This document shows, piece by piece, positions 42,987-49,077 of a stretch of DNA of 64,000 nt. The notes beneath the pieces are model-generated. The model did no database searches. It saw nothing but the letters and a program-made list of their open reading frames with translations, and had not been told where the DNA came from. The first letter of the stretch is position 1; each line of letters opens with the position of its first letter. The position numbers and the translations under genes were made by a program. Source of the stretch: Kribbella sp. VKM Ac-2569 (GTDB lineage Bacteria > Actinomycetota > Actinomycetes > Propionibacteriales > Kribbellaceae); the NCBI RefSeq assembly GCF_004216905.1, contig NZ_SGXJ01000003.1:744001-808000 (forward strand), in the 5' to 3' direction.

Positions 42987-43430
42987 GTGCGCGAACTGAC
43001 CGCCGTGGCCGGCCTGACGGTCCCATCCGATGTGGCCTTCGAGATCTTCACCGACGAGTTCGGTCGATGGTGGCCACCGGAGTTCTCGTGGTCAGGAGCC
43101 GAACTGCTGACCGACATGGGCCTCCTCGACGGAGTCCTGTACGAGCTCGGTCCGCACGGTATGCAATGGGATTGGGGCCGGGTGCTGACCTGGGAGCCGG
43201 GTCGCCGGCTCGTGTTCAGCTGGCAGATCGGTCCGGACAGGGTGCCGGTCCCCCGTGCCGAGGACGCGACGGAGGTGGAGGTCACCTTCGAGGGGTCGAC
43301 GGTGACCGTCGCCCATCGCGGCTGGGAGCGGCACGGCGAGGCCGGCGCCGAGTACCGGAAGAACTTCGAGCAGGTCTGGCCGTACGCGCTCGGTCGGTTC
43401 GCCGAGTACGCCACCAAGCGTCCTCGCTAG
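42987..43430 (+). CDS. SRPBCC (AHSA1-like) domain protein
   Basis: 147 residues from GTG at 42987. START-like helix-grip fold pattern: FEIFTDEFGRWWPPEF, ELGPHGMQWDWGRVLTWEPGRRLVFSWQIG and VTVAHRGWERHG. Such small domains bind hydrophobic ligands or act with Hsp90-like chaperones; no exact role can be given. Overlaps the convergent MBL gene by 4 bases. Confidence 0.85.
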   Translation: MRELTAVAGLTVPSDVAFEIFTDEFGRWWPPEFSWSGAELLTDMGLLDGVLYELGPHGMQWDWGRVLTWEPGRRLVFSWQIGPDRVPVPRAEDATEVEVTFEGSTVTVAHRGWERHGEAGAEYRKNFEQVWPYALGRFAEYATKRPR

Positions 43431-44158
43431 AGCTGGATGGTGAGGCCTTCCTCGGCGGCGATCACTTCGCCCGCGAACGCCCGCTTCGCCTCGGCCACGG
43501 ACACTGATCGATCCGACCCCGGCCAGAAGTGCGTCAGCAACAGCCTCGATGCTCCCCGCGCGCCCTCGGCTGCTTCCGTGGCAGTCATCACGTAACGGGG
43601 CTGGGTCTGCGGAGACGGACCTTGAAGCGTGGCATCGGAGATGAAGAGGTCAGTTCCGGCGGCCAAGCGCGCCAGGTCGGGCGATGGGCCGCTGTCCCCC
43701 GTATACGCGACCGATACCCCTGGCGCGGTGAGTCGCACGCCGAGATTCGTCTTGTAATGCGGGAGTTCCACGGTCAGCACCTCGAACGGCCCGATCCGCG
43801 TTGTCGACGCCAGGTCGTGGACGGCGAAGACGTCTGCCGGATCCGGGTGGGGCTCGAGTGCCCGCAGTACGTCGAGGACGCCGGGAGCGCAGTGCAGCGG
43901 GACCGGTGGTGCGTCTGGCTCCTCGTAGTACCTCACTCGGGCCAGACCACTCACGTCGACGCAGTGGTCCGGGTGCTGGTGGGTCACGACGATCGCGTCC
44001 ACCTCGCCCTTCGGACAATGTTCGAGCAGTCGCGGCAGAGCGGCGTACCCGAGATCGAGGACGACCCGGAAACCGTCGTACTCCAGCAGGAATCCCGCGC
44101 AGGCCCGGCCCGCCTCCGGCCAGGCGCCACAGGAACCGAGGACGGTCAGCGACCTCAC
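43427..44158 (-). CDS. MBL-fold hydrolase, last gene of a five-gene operon
   Basis: 243 residues from GTG at 44158, which overlaps the YccF stop as GTGA. The frame is open much further upstream, but that stretch is antisense to nothing useful and covers yccF. Ribonuclease Z/phosphodiesterase-like MBL fold: LGSCGAWPEAGRACAGFLLE, HQHPDHCVD, YTGDSGPS and LTHFWPG. It may hydrolyse a phosphodiester or cyclic nucleotide. Confidence 0.87.
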   Translation of the reverse strand: MRSLTVLGSCGAWPEAGRACAGFLLEYDGFRVVLDLGYAALPRLLEHCPKGEVDAIVVTHQHPDHCVDVSGLARVRYYEEPDAPPVPLHCAPGVLDVLRALEPHPDPADVFAVHDLASTTRIGPFEVLTVELPHYKTNLGVRLTAPGVSVAYTGDSGPSPDLARLAAGTDLFISDATLQGPSPQTQPRYVMTATEAAEGARGASRLLLTHFWPGSDRSVSVAEAKRAFAGEVIAAEEGLTIQL

Positions 44159-44541
44159 GCGAACGGCTGATTGGTCGGCACGATGGTCTTGCCGAGCGGC
44201 ACCAGCGAGACCGGGATCAGCTTGAAGTTCGCGACACCGAGCGGGATGCCGACAACCGTCAGGCACAACGCGATGCCGGTGGTCAGGTGGCCGAGCGCCA
44301 GCCACCAGCCGGCGACGACGATCCAGATCAGGTTGCCGAGCAGCGCGCCGGCCCCGGCGCTGCGTTTGTCCACGATGGTCCGCCCGAACGGCCACAGGGT
44401 GTACGCCGCGATCCGGAACGACGCGATCCCGAACGGGATCGTGACGATCAGCACGCAACAGATGATCCCGGCGACCGCGTAACCGACCGCCAGCCAGAAC
44501 CCGGCCAGAACCAGCCAGATCAGGTTGAGGAGCGTCTTCAT
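44155..44541 (-). CDS. YccF family membrane protein
   Basis: 128 residues with two YccF repeats (LLNLIWLVLAGFWLAVGYAVAG and LLGNLIWIVVAGWWLALGHLTTG) and about four membrane segments. Its start overlaps the alpha/beta hydrolase stop by 4 bases and its stop overlaps the MBL start by 4 bases. The role of YccF is not known; a membrane scaffold or transport function is only a guess. Confidence 0.9.
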   Translation of the reverse strand: MKTLLNLIWLVLAGFWLAVGYAVAGIICCVLIVTIPFGIASFRIAAYTLWPFGRTIVDKRSAGAGALLGNLIWIVVAGWWLALGHLTTGIALCLTVVGIPLGVANFKLIPVSLVPLGKTIVPTNQPFA

Positions 44542-45392
44542 GTCCTCCAGCGTGCCACCTGGCCGGTGTGTTCCAGCACCAACTGGGCGACAAGTCCGGG
44601 ATCGTTCCGGGGTATCCAGTGGCCACCCCTGATCACCTTGACCGTGAGGTTCGGGGCCCAGCGTGCGATGTCGGTCTGCAGCGGGGTGGTGACGAACGGG
44701 TCGGCATCCGGTGACACCGCGAGCACGGGTACGTCGGTACGCCGTTGTGCGGGCCGGAGGAGCCGTGGGATGACGTTCGCGCGGTACAGCTTGATGCCGT
44801 TCACATAGTCGCCGAGAGAGCGGTTGTCGTCGGGCTGCTGCTTCTCGAGGCGGTTGAACGCGCGGTGCGCCCAGCCTTTGCGCCAGCCAAGCTCAGGGAG
44901 CCATGGGAGGTGGAAGTAGAAGATGTACCAGGAGTGCAGCAACTGCCTGAGCGCTGCGAGAGAGCGCTTTCTGAGGAAGTAACCGGCGTGATCGAGTGAC
45001 GGGCCGGAGATGGACGTGAAGGACGCGATGCGGGGTTGTAGGTCCGGGGCGGTGACGAAGTGCCAGGCCTGGATGGAGCCCCAGTCGTGGGCCAGTACGT
45101 GCACAGGCCGGTCGGGTGACACCTGGTCGATGACTGCCTGGAAGTCGTCCTGCAGGCGATCGAGTGTGTACGCCGCGGTGCTGGTCGGATGGTCGGATTC
45201 GCCGGCGCCGCGGACGTCGTACGCGACCACCTGGAAGTCGTCGGCAAGCAGATCGGCCACCGGCTCCCAGAGCGCCGCGTTGTCCGGATACCCATGCACA
45301 CACACCAGCACCGGGCCGCCGTGGATGCTGTAGTCGTAGACGGCGAGGGTGGTGCCGTCGGGGCTAGTAGTTGTCGACTTCGAGGGTGGCAA
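44538..45392 (-). CDS. Alpha/beta hydrolase, epoxide-hydrolase-like
   Basis: 284 residues read from TTG at 45392; no ATG or GTG lies near the conserved N-terminus in this frame, so TTG is the likely start and overlaps the upstream reductase by 29 bases. Fold motifs: VCVHGYPDN oxyanion region, nucleophile position in LAHDWGS (Asp instead of Ser, as in epoxide hydrolases and dehalogenases), the acid in SPDADPFV and catalytic His in RGGHWIPR. It is the third gene of the operon. Confidence 0.87.
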   Translation of the reverse strand: MPPSKSTTTSPDGTTLAVYDYSIHGGPVLVCVHGYPDNAALWEPVADLLADDFQVVAYDVRGAGESDHPTSTAAYTLDRLQDDFQAVIDQVSPDRPVHVLAHDWGSIQAWHFVTAPDLQPRIASFTSISGPSLDHAGYFLRKRSLAALRQLLHSWYIFYFHLPWLPELGWRKGWAHRAFNRLEKQQPDDNRSLGDYVNGIKLYRANVIPRLLRPAQRRTDVPVLAVSPDADPFVTTPLQTDIARWAPNLTVKVIRGGHWIPRNDPGLVAQLVLEHTGQVARWRT

Positions 45393-46512
45393 AGGTCATT
45401 CCCGCTTTCACCAGGCGCTCGCGCAGAACGGGTCCCATGGCCGCGGCCGTCGTGGTTTGGCCGGCGGTCTCCGGCAGATCGTCGAGCGCCAGACAGAGAG
45501 CGCTCTCCCCGAGCATCTTCGCGGTCTCGTCGTACCCGGGGTCCCTGCCCGCGACCTCGGTGATCACCTGCTTGCCGCCGCCGCGACCAATGAATCGCAC
45601 GTTGAACCACGACTGCGCCCGCCGTTCTGCACTCGGTCCGTCACCGGGCTGGAGCCGCTTCAGCAGCGCGTTCCGGATCGGCGGGACCTGGGCGCCCGCG
45701 ATCAGCAGTCCGATCCCACCGATGCCTGCGGCAACAGTCGGGAGATGCTTCACCGCGGCGTAATGCGAGTACCGGAAGTCCGGTCCGTAGCGATCGAGCA
45801 GCCGGCCCGAGTACCCGACGATCTGCGGATCGATCGTCGGCAACGGAACCGCCCAGAACCCTTGCTGGCGGTGGATCTTCCCGGCAACCGCACGCGCCCT
45901 CCGATCCGTCGGCAGGGGCTCGGCTGCGCGCCGCGCGCGGTGCGCTTCCAGGTTCTGCTTCGGCCGCGAGAACGCGGTGATCGCGGTGTGGAACGTTCCC
46001 CCGGACGGACGGCCACCGCCACGGACCAGTCCGTCGACCTGGATGGGCACGCTCTGCGGCAACTGCTCGACCGTGTACTGCACGCCGAGGTCGTACGGGA
46101 TCGAGTCGAACCCGCACGCGTGAATAAGCCGTGCGCCGGTCTGCGTCGCGCGCTCGTGGTACCGAACGTACATCCGGTCCAGGAACTCCTGCTCACCCGT
46201 GAGATCGAGATACCCCGTCCCGGCCTCGGCGCACGCGGCGACGAGCGGTTCGCCGTACTCGACGTAGGGGCCGACGGTGGTGGCGACGACCTTGGTGGAC
46301 TCGGCGAGTTCGCGCAGCGACTTCGGGTCGGTGACGTCGGCGATCAGGATGTCTCTGCCGAACCGCTCGAGCTTCTGTTTGTTGCGTCCGGCAACCGCCC
46401 AGCGAAGGCCGTCCGGCGCGTTCTCCTCCAGGTACTCCGCGGTGAGCGCTCCCGTGAACCCGCTCGCACCCAGCAGGACGACGTCGTACTCGCGACTCAT
46501 TTCTGCGCTCAC
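45364..46512 (-). CDS. Saccharopine dehydrogenase-family reductase (trans-acting enoyl reductase-like)
   Basis: 382 residues from GTG at 46512 (overlapping the SDR stop as GTGA) or ATG at 46500. The NADP-binding motif VVLLGASGFTGALTAEYL is followed by RWAVAGRNKQKLE and ATTVGPYVEYGEPLV. It resembles the trans-acting enoyl reductases of mycobacterial polyketide lipids and related membrane-associated reductases. It probably reduces a lipid or polyketide-like substrate; this is family inference. Confidence 0.86.
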   Translation of the reverse strand: MSAEMSREYDVVLLGASGFTGALTAEYLEENAPDGLRWAVAGRNKQKLERFGRDILIADVTDPKSLRELAESTKVVATTVGPYVEYGEPLVAACAEAGTGYLDLTGEQEFLDRMYVRYHERATQTGARLIHACGFDSIPYDLGVQYTVEQLPQSVPIQVDGLVRGGGRPSGGTFHTAITAFSRPKQNLEAHRARRAAEPLPTDRRARAVAGKIHRQQGFWAVPLPTIDPQIVGYSGRLLDRYGPDFRYSHYAAVKHLPTVAAGIGGIGLLIAGAQVPPIRNALLKRLQPGDGPSAERRAQSWFNVRFIGRGGGKQVITEVAGRDPGYDETAKMLGESALCLALDDLPETAGQTTTAAAMGPVLRERLVKAGMTFATLEVDNY

Positions 46513-47399
46513 TTCTGAGCAGCCTGGGCGTCAGCGAGACCACCCGCGCCGCTCGGTCGCGAGGACACCTCGGCACCGCGGGCCTGGACGTCGGCCAGCG
46601 CCGCCGCGTCGGCCTTCGGCACGCTGAAGCGCGAGCCGGCCTCGATGACATGCGGGATCACCCAGCGGAACACCTTCAGCGCGCCGATCCAGCCCGGCAC
46701 GTGAACGGTGCGAGAGCGCTTTCTGATGCCCTCGACGAACTTGCCCACGGCGAACTCCAGCGAGTACGTCTTGCCCACTCCCGGGATCCCGGTCCGCACC
46801 TTGCCGAACACCGGGTGCGTGTCGACCCCGCGCACCATGTCGGTGTCGACGAACGTCATGTGCGCGACGCCGACCCGTACGCCGAGGTGCTTCAGCTCGG
46901 ACCGCAGCGTGTTCCCCATCGCCTCGACTCCGGCCTTGGACACGTTGTACGACGCGAGACCCGGGATGTGGACGATTGCGGCGAGGGACGAGACGAGCAA
47001 CAGATAGCCCTTGCTCTCCAGCAGGTACGGCAGCGTCAGGTGGACGGTGCGCCAGACACCGATCAGGTCGACATCCAGTACGCGCTCCCAGACCTTCGGG
47101 TCCATGCTCCGGCTGAAGCCCGGCGCCGCGATCCCGGCGTTCGCCATCACGACGTCGATCCGGCCGTAGCGCTCGGCGATCGCCTCGACCGCGGTCCGCA
47201 GCGAGTCGGTGTCGGTGACGTCGGCCTCCCACCAGCCGGAGTCCGGGCCGCAGTCCTCCGCGACCTTCTTCAACTCGTCCGGCTCCAGGCCGACCAGCGC
47301 GAGCTTCGCGCCGTCCTCCGCCAGCTTCCGGGCGACCGCGGCGCCGATCCCCCGGGAGGCGCCGGTGATGAGCACGACTTGACCGGCCAACGGACGCAT
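46509..47399 (-). CDS. Short-chain dehydrogenase/reductase, first gene of the TetR-controlled operon
   Basis: 296 residues from ATG at 47399 with GGAGG upstream. Classical SDR: VLITGASRGIGAAVA (TGxxxGxG), NAG in MANAGIAAP, catalytic Ser in VSSLAAI and YxxxK in YNVSKAGVE. A C-terminal extension of about 50 residues follows. NAD(P)-dependent oxidoreductase of unknown substrate. Two palindromes in the gap to the divergent TetR gene suggest tight repression. Confidence 0.92.
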   Translation of the reverse strand: MRPLAGQVVLITGASRGIGAAVARKLAEDGAKLALVGLEPDELKKVAEDCGPDSGWWEADVTDTDSLRTAVEAIAERYGRIDVVMANAGIAAPGFSRSMDPKVWERVLDVDLIGVWRTVHLTLPYLLESKGYLLLVSSLAAIVHIPGLASYNVSKAGVEAMGNTLRSELKHLGVRVGVAHMTFVDTDMVRGVDTHPVFGKVRTGIPGVGKTYSLEFAVGKFVEGIRKRSRTVHVPGWIGALKVFRWVIPHVIEAGSRFSVPKADAAALADVQARGAEVSSRPSGAGGLADAQAAQK

Positions 47400-47416
47400 C
47401 TGGCACCTCCAGCTTG

Positions 47417-47463
47417 TTGAGTGGATACTCAACAGTAAGTGATTATTGACCGAATACTCAATA
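47417..47463. promoter_or_regulatory. Two TetR operators, consensus TTGAnYgrATACTCAA
   Basis: TTGAGTGGATACTCAA (47417-47432) and the 16-base core TTGACCGAATACTCAA within 47444-47463, the latter extended to TATTGA...TCAATA. Both are palindromic and lie between the divergent SDR and TetR starts, so both promoters should be controlled. Confidence 0.8.
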
Positions 47464-47473
47464 GACTGCCCGC

Positions 47474-48085
47474 ATGAGCCAGATCTCCTCCTCCGGTGCC
47501 AGGCTGCGGCCCGATGAGCGGCGGGCGCAGATCCTCGCGGCCGCGCGCCGGGTGCTGCTCGCGGACCCGCACCGCGAGCTCACGGTCGAGCTCGTCGCCG
47601 CCGAGGCCGGCGTCTCCCCCGCTCTCCTGTTTCACTACTTCGGCTCCAAGAAGAAGTTCCAGTACGCCGTCATCGAGGAAGCCGCGGCCGAGGTCATGCT
47701 GCGCACCGCCCCGGACCCGTCGCTGCCGCCCGACGAGCAGCTGCGTGCCGGGATCCGCGCGTTCGTCCGCGCCGTCCTCGAGGCTCCCCAGCTGTACCGG
47801 GCCACCCTGTTGATGTCGGCCGCCGGGGACCCCGACGTCAGAGCGCTGCACTCCGACCTGCGCCGTGTCTTCAGCCAGTGGGTGATCAGCGCCGTCGCCG
47901 AGCGCGGCATCGAGATCACCCCCGTCGTCGAGCTCGCCTGTCACGGCTGGCAGGGTTACGTCGAACAGACCCTGCTGGTGTGGATCGACAACCCGACCGT
48001 CTCGCCGGAAGCCCTCGAGCATCTGTGCGCGCAGTCCCTGGACGCCATCCTGTCGACAACCAGCCTCACGACGACCCCGGAGTGA
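47474..48085 (+). CDS. TetR/AcrR-family regulator of the SDR operon
   Basis: 203 residues. Helix-turn-helix at about 15-60 (RAQILAAARRVLLADPHRELTVELVAAEAGVSPALLFHYFGSKKKF overall), followed by a helical ligand domain. Divergent from the SDR operon. It probably senses a hydrophobic molecule related to the operon's substrate. Its last 20 bases overlap the convergent marR gene. Confidence 0.93.
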   Translation: MSQISSSGARLRPDERRAQILAAARRVLLADPHRELTVELVAAEAGVSPALLFHYFGSKKKFQYAVIEEAAAEVMLRTAPDPSLPPDEQLRAGIRAFVRAVLEAPQLYRATLLMSAAGDPDVRALHSDLRRVFSQWVISAVAERGIEITPVVELACHGWQGYVEQTLLVWIDNPTVSPEALEHLCAQSLDAILSTTSLTTTPE

Positions 48086-48530
48086 TCTCCGACGGCTCGG
48101 CAGCGAGCGCGGTCAGCAACTGCAGCACCTTGCCGATCAGACCGTCAGTCGCCTCCGCGCCGAGCCGCGCGGTCAGCTCCGCATCGATCGCGGACAGCAC
48201 GACTCGGCAGCGACCGAGCAGTTGCTCGCCTGCAGCCGTGACCTTCAGGTCTGCGGCCCGTCCTCGCCCAGGTGCCGTCAGTCGCTCGACAGCCCCCATG
48301 TCCTGCAACTGCAGGAGCGTCGACTGCATGCTCTGGGCTGTGATGCCGTCCCTCCGGGCGAGCTCGCTGTACGACAACCCCGGCTGGTGTGCGAGATGCC
48401 CCAGCGCCGAGAAGTGCCGCAGCGACAGGCCCTCCGCCCGGAGATCACGCTCCAACCGCGCGCGCAGCTCTCCACCCAGCATCACCAGCAACAGCGCGGG
48501 ACTCAGCGGCGGTCGCCTGGTCTCTTCCAT
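48066..48530 (-). CDS. MarR-family transcriptional regulator
   Basis: 154 residues from ATG at 48530. Winged-helix region LSLRHFSALGHLAHQPGLSYSELARRDGITAQSMQSTLLQLQ followed by the wing with LTAPGRGRAADLKVTAAG, typical of MarR. It is divergent from the DUF2269 gene, with repeated CAGTCT-type sites in the gap. It probably controls itself and the two membrane-protein genes. Confidence 0.92.
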   Translation of the reverse strand: MEETRRPPLSPALLLVMLGGELRARLERDLRAEGLSLRHFSALGHLAHQPGLSYSELARRDGITAQSMQSTLLQLQDMGAVERLTAPGRGRAADLKVTAAGEQLLGRCRVVLSAIDAELTARLGAEATDGLIGKVLQLLTALAAEPSEITPGSS

Positions 48531-48549
48531 CCGGCAATCATCGCAGGTT

Positions 48550-48585
48550 TCAGTCTCACTGATACTTGAGTTACAGTCTGGCTGA
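48550..48585. promoter_or_regulatory. Probable MarR operators
   Basis: TCAGT-CTC-ACTGA at 48550-48562 is a perfect palindrome; CAGTCTGGCTGA at 48574-48585 repeats its form 24 bases away. GTTTCAG and CTGAAAC also frame the whole block. Located between the divergent starts. Confidence 0.65.
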
Positions 48586-48609
48586 AACTTTCGACCTCTG
48601 GGGAGTGTG

Positions 48610-49077
48610 ATGAACAAGTTCCTGCTCAGCGTCCATGTCCTGGCCGCGATCATCTTCGTCGGTCCGGTGACGATCGCGGCGAGCATGTTCCCGCCGATCG
48701 CCCGCCGGACGCTCCTGGCGGAGGCGCCGGACGCCGCGGTACTGGCGGTCCTCCACCGCATCAGCAAGGTCTACGCGATCGGCGGTCTGGCCGTGCCCGT
48801 CTTCGGTCTTGCGGTGGCCGGCGGGATGGGGGTGCTGGGCGACTACTGGCTGATCATCTCGATGATCCTCACGCTCGTCGCCGCTGCCTTGCTCGCCTTC
48901 GTGGTCATCCCCACACAATCCCGTGTGCTGGCAGCGGCCGCCGCCGGTCCCGACGTACGCACGGCGCTGCTCCCCCAGGCCAAGGCACTGTCCATGACCA
49001 CCGGCGTGTTCGCCCTCCTGTGGGCCGTCGTCGTGGTGCTGATGATCGTCCGCCCCGGTTCGACAACGGGGGCCTGA
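48610..49077 (+). CDS. DUF2269 family membrane protein
   Basis: 155 residues from ATG at 48610 (GTG at 48607 is an alternative), with GGGAG just upstream. Four membrane segments, starting KFLLSVHVLAAIIFVGPVTIAASMFPP, match DUF2269. Function unknown. The next gene starts three bases after its stop, so the two form an operon opposite the MarR gene. Confidence 0.88.
   Translation: MNKFLLSVHVLAAIIFVGPVTIAASMFPPIARRTLLAEAPDAAVLAVLHRISKVYAIGGLAVPVFGLAVAGGMGVLGDYWLIISMILTLVAAALLAFVVIPTQSRVLAAAAAGPDVRTALLPQAKALSMTTGVFALLWAVVVVLMIVRPGSTTGA

Follow-up and report, generated by a model that had tools for sequence, protein, structure and literature searches.

In Mycobacterium tuberculosis, EphD is described (PMC7998700) as a fusion of a hydrolase with a short-chain dehydrogenase/reductase (SDR), active on mycolic acids of the oxygenated type and able to cleave 9,10-epoxystearic acid. 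In the present study, we analyzed a locus that encodes both kinds of enzyme as separate polypeptides, within a stretch of 64,000 nucleotides (the window) from contig NZ_SGXJ01000003.1 of Kribbella sp. VKM Ac-2569. The source is a soil actinobacterium, and the locus comprises a minus-strand operon for an SDR, a saccharopine-dehydrogenase-like NADP-binding oxidoreductase (SacDH), an epoxide-hydrolase-like alpha/beta hydrolase (ABH), the inner-membrane protein YccF and a metallo-beta-lactamase-fold (MBL) metallohydrolase, together with a divergent gene for a TetR-family regulator. Our results suggest, with moderate confidence, that this is an autorepressed local operon that would process a lipid-like or xenobiotic carbonyl, alkene or epoxide compound, with SDR and SacDH as its core and ABH as a dispensable component.

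When compared with EphD-type fusions (M. tuberculosis EphD and M. smegmatis MSMEG_4280), ABH was found to be homologous over the full length to the N-terminal hydrolase half, with the same five predicted active-site residues in the one fusion aligned, and the operon, like the SDR half of a fusion, also provides an SDR. Unlike in these fusions, the Kribbella hydrolase is not joined to the SDR, which belongs to the PRK05872 subfamily (NF004526, 318.3 bits; cut-off 276), and the operon is without the PF10118, M24 and Fer2 neighbours that many EphD-type genes in this analysis have. The only domain found in SacDH is PF03435 (39.9 bits; cut-off 25.1). Its AlphaFold model (24 sequences), with a predicted local distance difference test (pLDDT) score of 86.5, matches carboxyspermidine, lysine and saccharopine dehydrogenases and shares the overall NADP-dehydrogenase fold of the saccharopine/carboxyspermidine group (8deb, 3abi, 2axq) at 10-16% identity; the domain score and the fold match both place SacDH in this superfamily, and no PDB relative was detected by sequence at E <= 0.001. 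Rv2953 of M. tuberculosis, which we take to be a trans-acting enoyl reductase of the saccharopine-dehydrogenase family, presumably belongs to the same broad superfamily. No title or abstract in the open-access PubMed Central (PMC) literature was found to concern this gene set or its regulator.

The tetR-SDR gap and its twin sites

A preliminary description of the window, made from the sequence alone, had proposed five overlapping genes under a divergent TetR, and we confirmed both the coordinates and all four junctions, which are overlaps of 4, 29, 4 and 4 bases in the order SDR, SacDH, ABH, YccF and MBL (Table 1). The gap between tetR and the SDR gene (47400-47473, 74 bases) contains two operator-like palindromes. 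The core of the first, TTGAGTGGATACTCAA, lies at 47417 and has perfect inverted arms (TTGAGT and ACTCAA), and that of the second, TTGACCGAATACTCAA, lies at 47446; both fit the pattern TTGAnYgrATACTCAA, whose duplication had been noticed earlier. Putative operator 2 extends over the likely -35 element of the SDR gene and into the start of the probable tetR -10 element.

Table 1. Genes and candidate regulatory elements of the Kribbella locus (window positions).
Feature	Position	Strand	Remarks
MBL-fold metallohydrolase, 243 aa	43427..44158	-	GTG start; PF12706, THQHPDH motif
YccF inner-membrane protein, 128 aa	44155..44541	-	ATG start; NF008740, PF03733
ABH, epoxide-hydrolase-like alpha/beta hydrolase, 284 aa	44538..45392	-	TTG start; corresponds to N-half of EphD-type fusions
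SacDH, saccharopine-dehydrogenase-like NADP-binding oxidoreductase, 382 aa	45364..46512	-	GTG start; PF03435
SDR oxidoreductase, PRK05872 subfamily, 296 aa	46509..47399	-	ATG start; GGAGG just 5'
Putative operator 1, TGTTGA-N8-TCAACA	47415..47434		over likely SDR transcription start
Candidate SDR -10, TACTGT	47432..47437	-	18 bp from candidate -35
Putative operator 2, TATTGA-N8-TCAATA	47444..47463		29 bp from operator 1
Candidate SDR -35, TTGAGT	47456..47461	-	overlapped by putative operator 2
Candidate tetR -10, TAGACT	47462..47467	+	6 bases before tetR ATG
TetR-family regulator, 203 aa	47474..48085	+	divergent from operon; TetR_N
aa, amino acids.

Conservation was assessed in 38 Kribbella genomes, i.e., that of the window and 37 others, drawn from an SDR search of an order-level sample in which 90 genomes had no SDR match (none of the 20 of these that were listed is a Kribbella). 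The set consists of the window, 16 loci from a SacDH scan and 22 loci fetched by place, with one genome present in both of the latter. In each of the 37 other genomes, tetR adjoins the SDR gene, and the gap holds two TTGAN8TCAA sites and no more, at an offset of 29 bp in every case; the tetR-SDR distance, as estimated from protein matches, varies from 49 to 209, and the offset of the twin sites stays constant. The regulator itself is a member of the TetR family by its TetR_N domain (42.7 bits; cut-off 24), and palindromic sites in a divergent gap that are conserved in orthologues are a further feature of this family that it shares.

The sequences around the twin sites were conserved to the same extent. 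All 37 genomes have CAACAGTA at the position of the candidate SDR -10 element, CAGTA between the two sites, and TA[G/C]ACT directly after site 2, at 6-7 bases 5' of an ATG or GTG. The retention of CAGTA and TA[G/C]ACT points to a candidate SDR promoter (TTGAGT-18-TACTGT) and a candidate tetR promoter. Site 2 would overlap this SDR promoter and site 1 would follow it, and the short distance between the candidate tetR -10 element and the ATG suggests that the tetR mRNA is leaderless. Generic scans for consensus sigma-70 promoters and for terminators gave nothing above shuffled sequences. The overlap of the twin sites with -10- and -35-like elements that are conserved in all 37 genomes supports autorepression by TetR.

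We also asked how often such sites occur elsewhere. TTGAN6ACTCAA was found at three places in the 8.43-Mb genome, two of them within this gap. A reversed control gave three forward and two reverse matches, indicating that the bare count is not above chance and that what is unusual is the presence of two sites 29 bp apart in one gap. With up to two mismatches, the operator 20-mer matched this gap only in its own genome (reversed control, 0 forward and 3 reverse), and a wider regulon or global role was set aside on these grounds. The absence of a second target site in the genome suggests that the operon is controlled locally, by a private pair of operator-like sites; the strong evidence for them is their conservation in the 37 of 37 other Kribbella genomes rather than the genome count. 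A class-wide scan of 394 genomes for the spaced pair returned four genomes including the present one, and the pairs in the other three differ in letters. Genome G007 has TTGAGCGTCCGCTCAA and TTGAGCGACCGCTCAA at a 29-bp offset (L199:5975-6019, corresponding to C16:212974-213018), 5' of another gene that looks TetR-like by eye; this pair is probably unrelated to the Kribbella TetR clade and was not used as evidence.

Relatives of the regulator outside Kribbella

A search of the same 394 genomes with the TetR protein (E <= 1e-20) found relatives in 57 genomes, its own included, with 61 matches outside its own genome. At the 29 non-Kribbella loci that were returned and read, the relatives are 31-43% identical to the Kribbella protein, and in 23 of them TRYTGA-N-TCARYA stands 5' of tetR, always with a 7-bp spacer, compared to a spacer of 8 in every Kribbella locus. 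Loci that lack this TetR, 950 kb in total, gave no match to TRYTGA-N(4-11)-TCARYA, and the wider locus set contained just three matches with another spacer, each of 6 bp and each inside a Kribbella locus.

The genes beside these regulators are not those of the Kribbella operon. A flavin monooxygenase match was present at 19 of the 29 loci, and one more (L169) had an SDR alone. In the eight loci fetched in full (L188, L190 and L192-L197), a gene resembling flavin or Baeyer-Villiger monooxygenases (FMO/BVMO-like) is divergent from tetR and is followed by an SDR gene, with Abhydrolase_3 also present in L188, L195 and L196; L198 has the SDR alone. The TRYTGA-N7-TCARYA regulator and its monooxygenase-SDR(-Abhydrolase_3) genes in these eight loci constitute a predicted regulon in their own right. 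These cassettes resemble the Kribbella locus in having a related TetR, a divergent layout, TRYTGA/TCARYA half-sites and an SDR neighbour. They differ from it in their spacer and in the monooxygenase, which the Kribbella operon lacks; they show no SacDH, ABH, YccF or MBL match, and their SDR is more distant from that of Kribbella (32-36% identity) than other SDRs are (41-50%).

In three genomes of family f21 (L185-L187; 81-88% complete), the TetR relative stands with an EphD-type hydrolase-SDR fusion, together with PF10118, M24 and a Fer2 reductase. More generally, EphD-type fusions (L185-L187, L234-L236, L245, L256 and L258-L260) repeatedly adjoin PF10118, a predicted metal-dependent hydrolase, and an M24 peptidase-like protein, with the Fer2 reductase also present in L185-L187, forming a conserved cluster around EphD. 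The monooxygenase, SDR and EphD-type neighbours indicate that the genes beside this TetR clade are redox/hydrolase cassettes. The regulator and its operator half-sites thus appear to be common to the clade while the enzyme cassette differs. The window's own genome encodes a second TetR relative (G000:C4:155297-157900, L226; 28% identity), which is divergent from a gene that is acyl-CoA dehydrogenase-like by eye, with an SDR; this locus was set aside.

Gene retention within and beyond the genus

TetR, SDR, SacDH and the twin sites were present in all 38 Kribbella genomes, and most of these genomes keep all five operon genes. ABH was intact in 31 of the 38, including L135, in which the joined coverage is complete though partial by single segment. 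On a tree of TetR, SDR and SacDH (FastTree, midpoint root, supports not displayed), ABH loss falls by eye at no fewer than six places if regain is excluded. In the four ABH-less genomes, the sequence left after SacDH can be aligned to the end of complete ABH genes, and 12 of 12 comparisons scored above all 200 shuffles, which indicates that these absences are deletions. In K. turkmenica (L024:7120-7320), no more than a scar of ABH is left between SacDH and MBL, and YccF, by eye, is seemingly a scar too. The 29-base SacDH/ABH overlap was found in 17 Kribbella loci, all within one part of the tree, and in others ABH starts 0-5 bases past the SacDH stop.

Outside the genus, the nearer SDR relatives (41-50% identity) were followed at 14 loci, fetched from the 19 non-Kribbella genomes that have one, and none of these 14 loci contained any of the other five genes (TetR, SacDH, ABH, YccF, MBL); a non-Kribbella relative of the SDR (L124) adjoins a distant monooxygenase (26%). 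Many actinobacteria that are without this operon encode a SacDH of 59-64% identity. Among the best 64 non-Kribbella SacDH loci, five had a distant SDR, and clustering of the neighbours found recurring ones only within sets of related genomes. In Amycolatopsis, seven of eight loci (L020, L028, L037, L043, L057, L063 and L068) have a flavin monooxygenase within ~4 kb of SacDH; it is convergent (opposite strand) and 40-41% identical to the TetR-linked one, and four of the loci have an SDR. This neighbourhood is a hint of similar chemistry, though genus synteny may also account for it. A PF03435 search of the window's own genome missed the SacDH of the operon and so is not a complete count of its paralogues.

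Adjacent to the operon, a gene that is SRPBCC-like by eye (42987-43430, plus strand) converges with MBL, their ends overlapping by 4 bases (43427-43430). On the other side (48066-48610), a gene that by eye is of the MarR type is divergent from a DUF2269-like membrane gene, and the gap between them contains inverted arms (GTTTCAG...CTGAAAC), also noted by eye.

Proposed mechanism and competing explanations

From these features, we infer repression, a class of ligand, and a set of reactions and their order. TetR would occupy both palindromes of the common promoter region, silencing its own gene as well as the minus-strand operon, until a ligand, probably lipophilic, releases it. The SDR and the saccharopine-type NADP oxidoreductase would be the redox pair at the core, and epoxides would be opened by the EphD-like hydrolase in genomes that have it. 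MBL may hydrolyse a product or by-product, and YccF (NF008740, 181 bits against a cut-off of 123; also PF03733) would sit in the membrane. As a gene cluster, the operon has the look of a common inducible type for metabolism or detoxification. The sequence of steps suggested earlier, i.e., reduction, reduction and hydrolysis, found no support in our analysis.

Several findings weigh against this reading. ABH is absent from four genomes (L008, L012, L024 and L128) and truncated or partly recognisable in three (L004, L141 and L148), or 7 of 38 altogether; two of 38 (L142 and L143) lack MBL, which carries a frameshift in L010 and L132; one of 38 (L024) lacks YccF; and the SDR gene is frameshifted in L128. 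Losses of ABH, MBL and YccF imply that the enzymes do not have to share a single substrate, and the fact that ABH has been lost repeatedly argues against this hydrolase being the point of the operon. Because genomes were sampled via SDR or SacDH, the constancy of those two genes, though not of tetR and the sites, is partly by choice. No TetR, ABH, YccF or MBL was found at E <= 1e-10 in the best 64 non-Kribbella SacDH loci, several of which end at contig ends. Adjoining genes that are hemerythrin-like and DDAH-like by eye are also conserved in Kribbella, so that part of the operon linkage is plain genus-level synteny. Among the 29 non-Kribbella TetR relatives, six are without the operator motif (L160, L162, L177, L180, L182 and L183). 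A common descent of the ABH in Kribbella and the EphD next to TetR in family f21 was considered. It is weakened by the higher scores of other EphD-type proteins, as well as by two additional loci (L243 and L255) in which a TetR relative adjoins an EphD-type gene and the motif is likewise missing. Since the EphD found in TetR-linked genomes is not the one nearest to Kribbella ABH, the recurrence of TetR with EphD may be a coincidence.

Much of this evidence would also fit an explanation that we consider unlikely, though credible, in which TetR regulates SDR and SacDH for a single purpose, with ABH, YccF and MBL as co-transcribed passengers of unrelated function. The losses of these three genes, set against the presence of TetR, SDR, SacDH and the sites in every genome, agree with it, as do the equal conservation of the flanking genes and the failure to find the set outside the genus. 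However, the 4-base junctions between ABH and YccF (30 of 34 loci) and between YccF and MBL (29 of 35; one genome is entered twice in these counts) are retained in each of the two parts of the Kribbella tree, and the full set of five persists in most genomes. The preliminary description had proposed one coherent route and had asked whether the genes stay together elsewhere. The single operon with its constant TetR, SDR, SacDH and twin sites bears out the first idea in part, while the losses speak against an obligatory five-gene route, and a single epoxide route is possible; likewise, the genes do stay together in most Kribbella genomes but are scattered at the 64 SacDH and 14 SDR loci outside the genus.

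The similarity of ABH to EphD raises the question of whether the operon is an EphD-like set for envelope-lipid modification, in split polypeptides, that opens a lipid epoxide which the SDR then rearranges or oxidises. ABH is 44-48% identical to the N-halves of EphD-type proteins and is the only relative of the EphD N-half listed in its own genome at E <= 1e-30, a threshold at which this genome has no match to full-length EphD. ABH aligns to positions 3-287 of the 578-position profile NF004514 (PRK05855; E 4.1e-96), a model that we take to be tied to EphD, but its score (322.8) falls below the family cut-off of 455, and the protein ends past the hydrolase domain, with no fused C-terminal SDR. 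The earlier view of ABH as epoxide-hydrolase-like was upheld, and it is predicted to be an epoxide hydrolase with the full set of residues: the D103 nucleophile (HDWG), H258, the acid D231, the lid tyrosines Y156 and Y203, and HGYP as the HGxP motif. These roles were assigned by alignment with PDB 5ng7 and, in part, from what we assume to be the general anatomy of alpha/beta-fold epoxide hydrolases; all five residues and HGYP are the same in each of 22 Kribbella proteins, that of the window among them, and in the EphD-type fusion of L185. The properties of EphD summarized above and the SDR in the operon favour this explanation. Against it stand the PRK05872 subfamily of the SDR, its first place in the gene order, and the frequent loss of ABH while the SDR stays. 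We also know of no mycolic acid production in Kribbella. Altogether, we regard an envelope-lipid role as quite improbable.

It is very hard to believe, finally, that the operon serves signalling, with MBL degrading cyclic nucleotides, YccF as its membrane partner and the redox enzymes secondary. The idea draws on the best NCBIfam match of MBL, the cyclic-nucleotide phosphodiesterase family NF041851. This match reflects a distant relationship (110.8 against a cut-off of 400), and another place in the genome (C1:1675641) matches the family better, at 247 bits, though also below the cut-off; the function was rejected as an assignment for MBL, which is moreover missing from some genomes.

Returning to the locally autorepressed operon that we favour, its most unusual part appears to be the switch, i.e., one operator code used with different cassettes, with a one-base change of spacer in Kribbella. 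A bolder proposal, which we put forward tentatively and hold to be possible rather than probable, is that the TetR clade keeps the TRYTGA..TCARYA code and swaps the whole cassette, that the Kribbella regulator and its spacer co-evolved from 7 to 8 into a private switch, and that the operon carries out an undescribed lipid epoxide or enone route. If true, this would be a clean case of a repressor clade in which the operator half-sites survive while the spacer and the regulon change, and the pair of SDR and saccharopine-type reductase would offer an entry to the function of a saccharopine-like family that is present in many actinobacteria.

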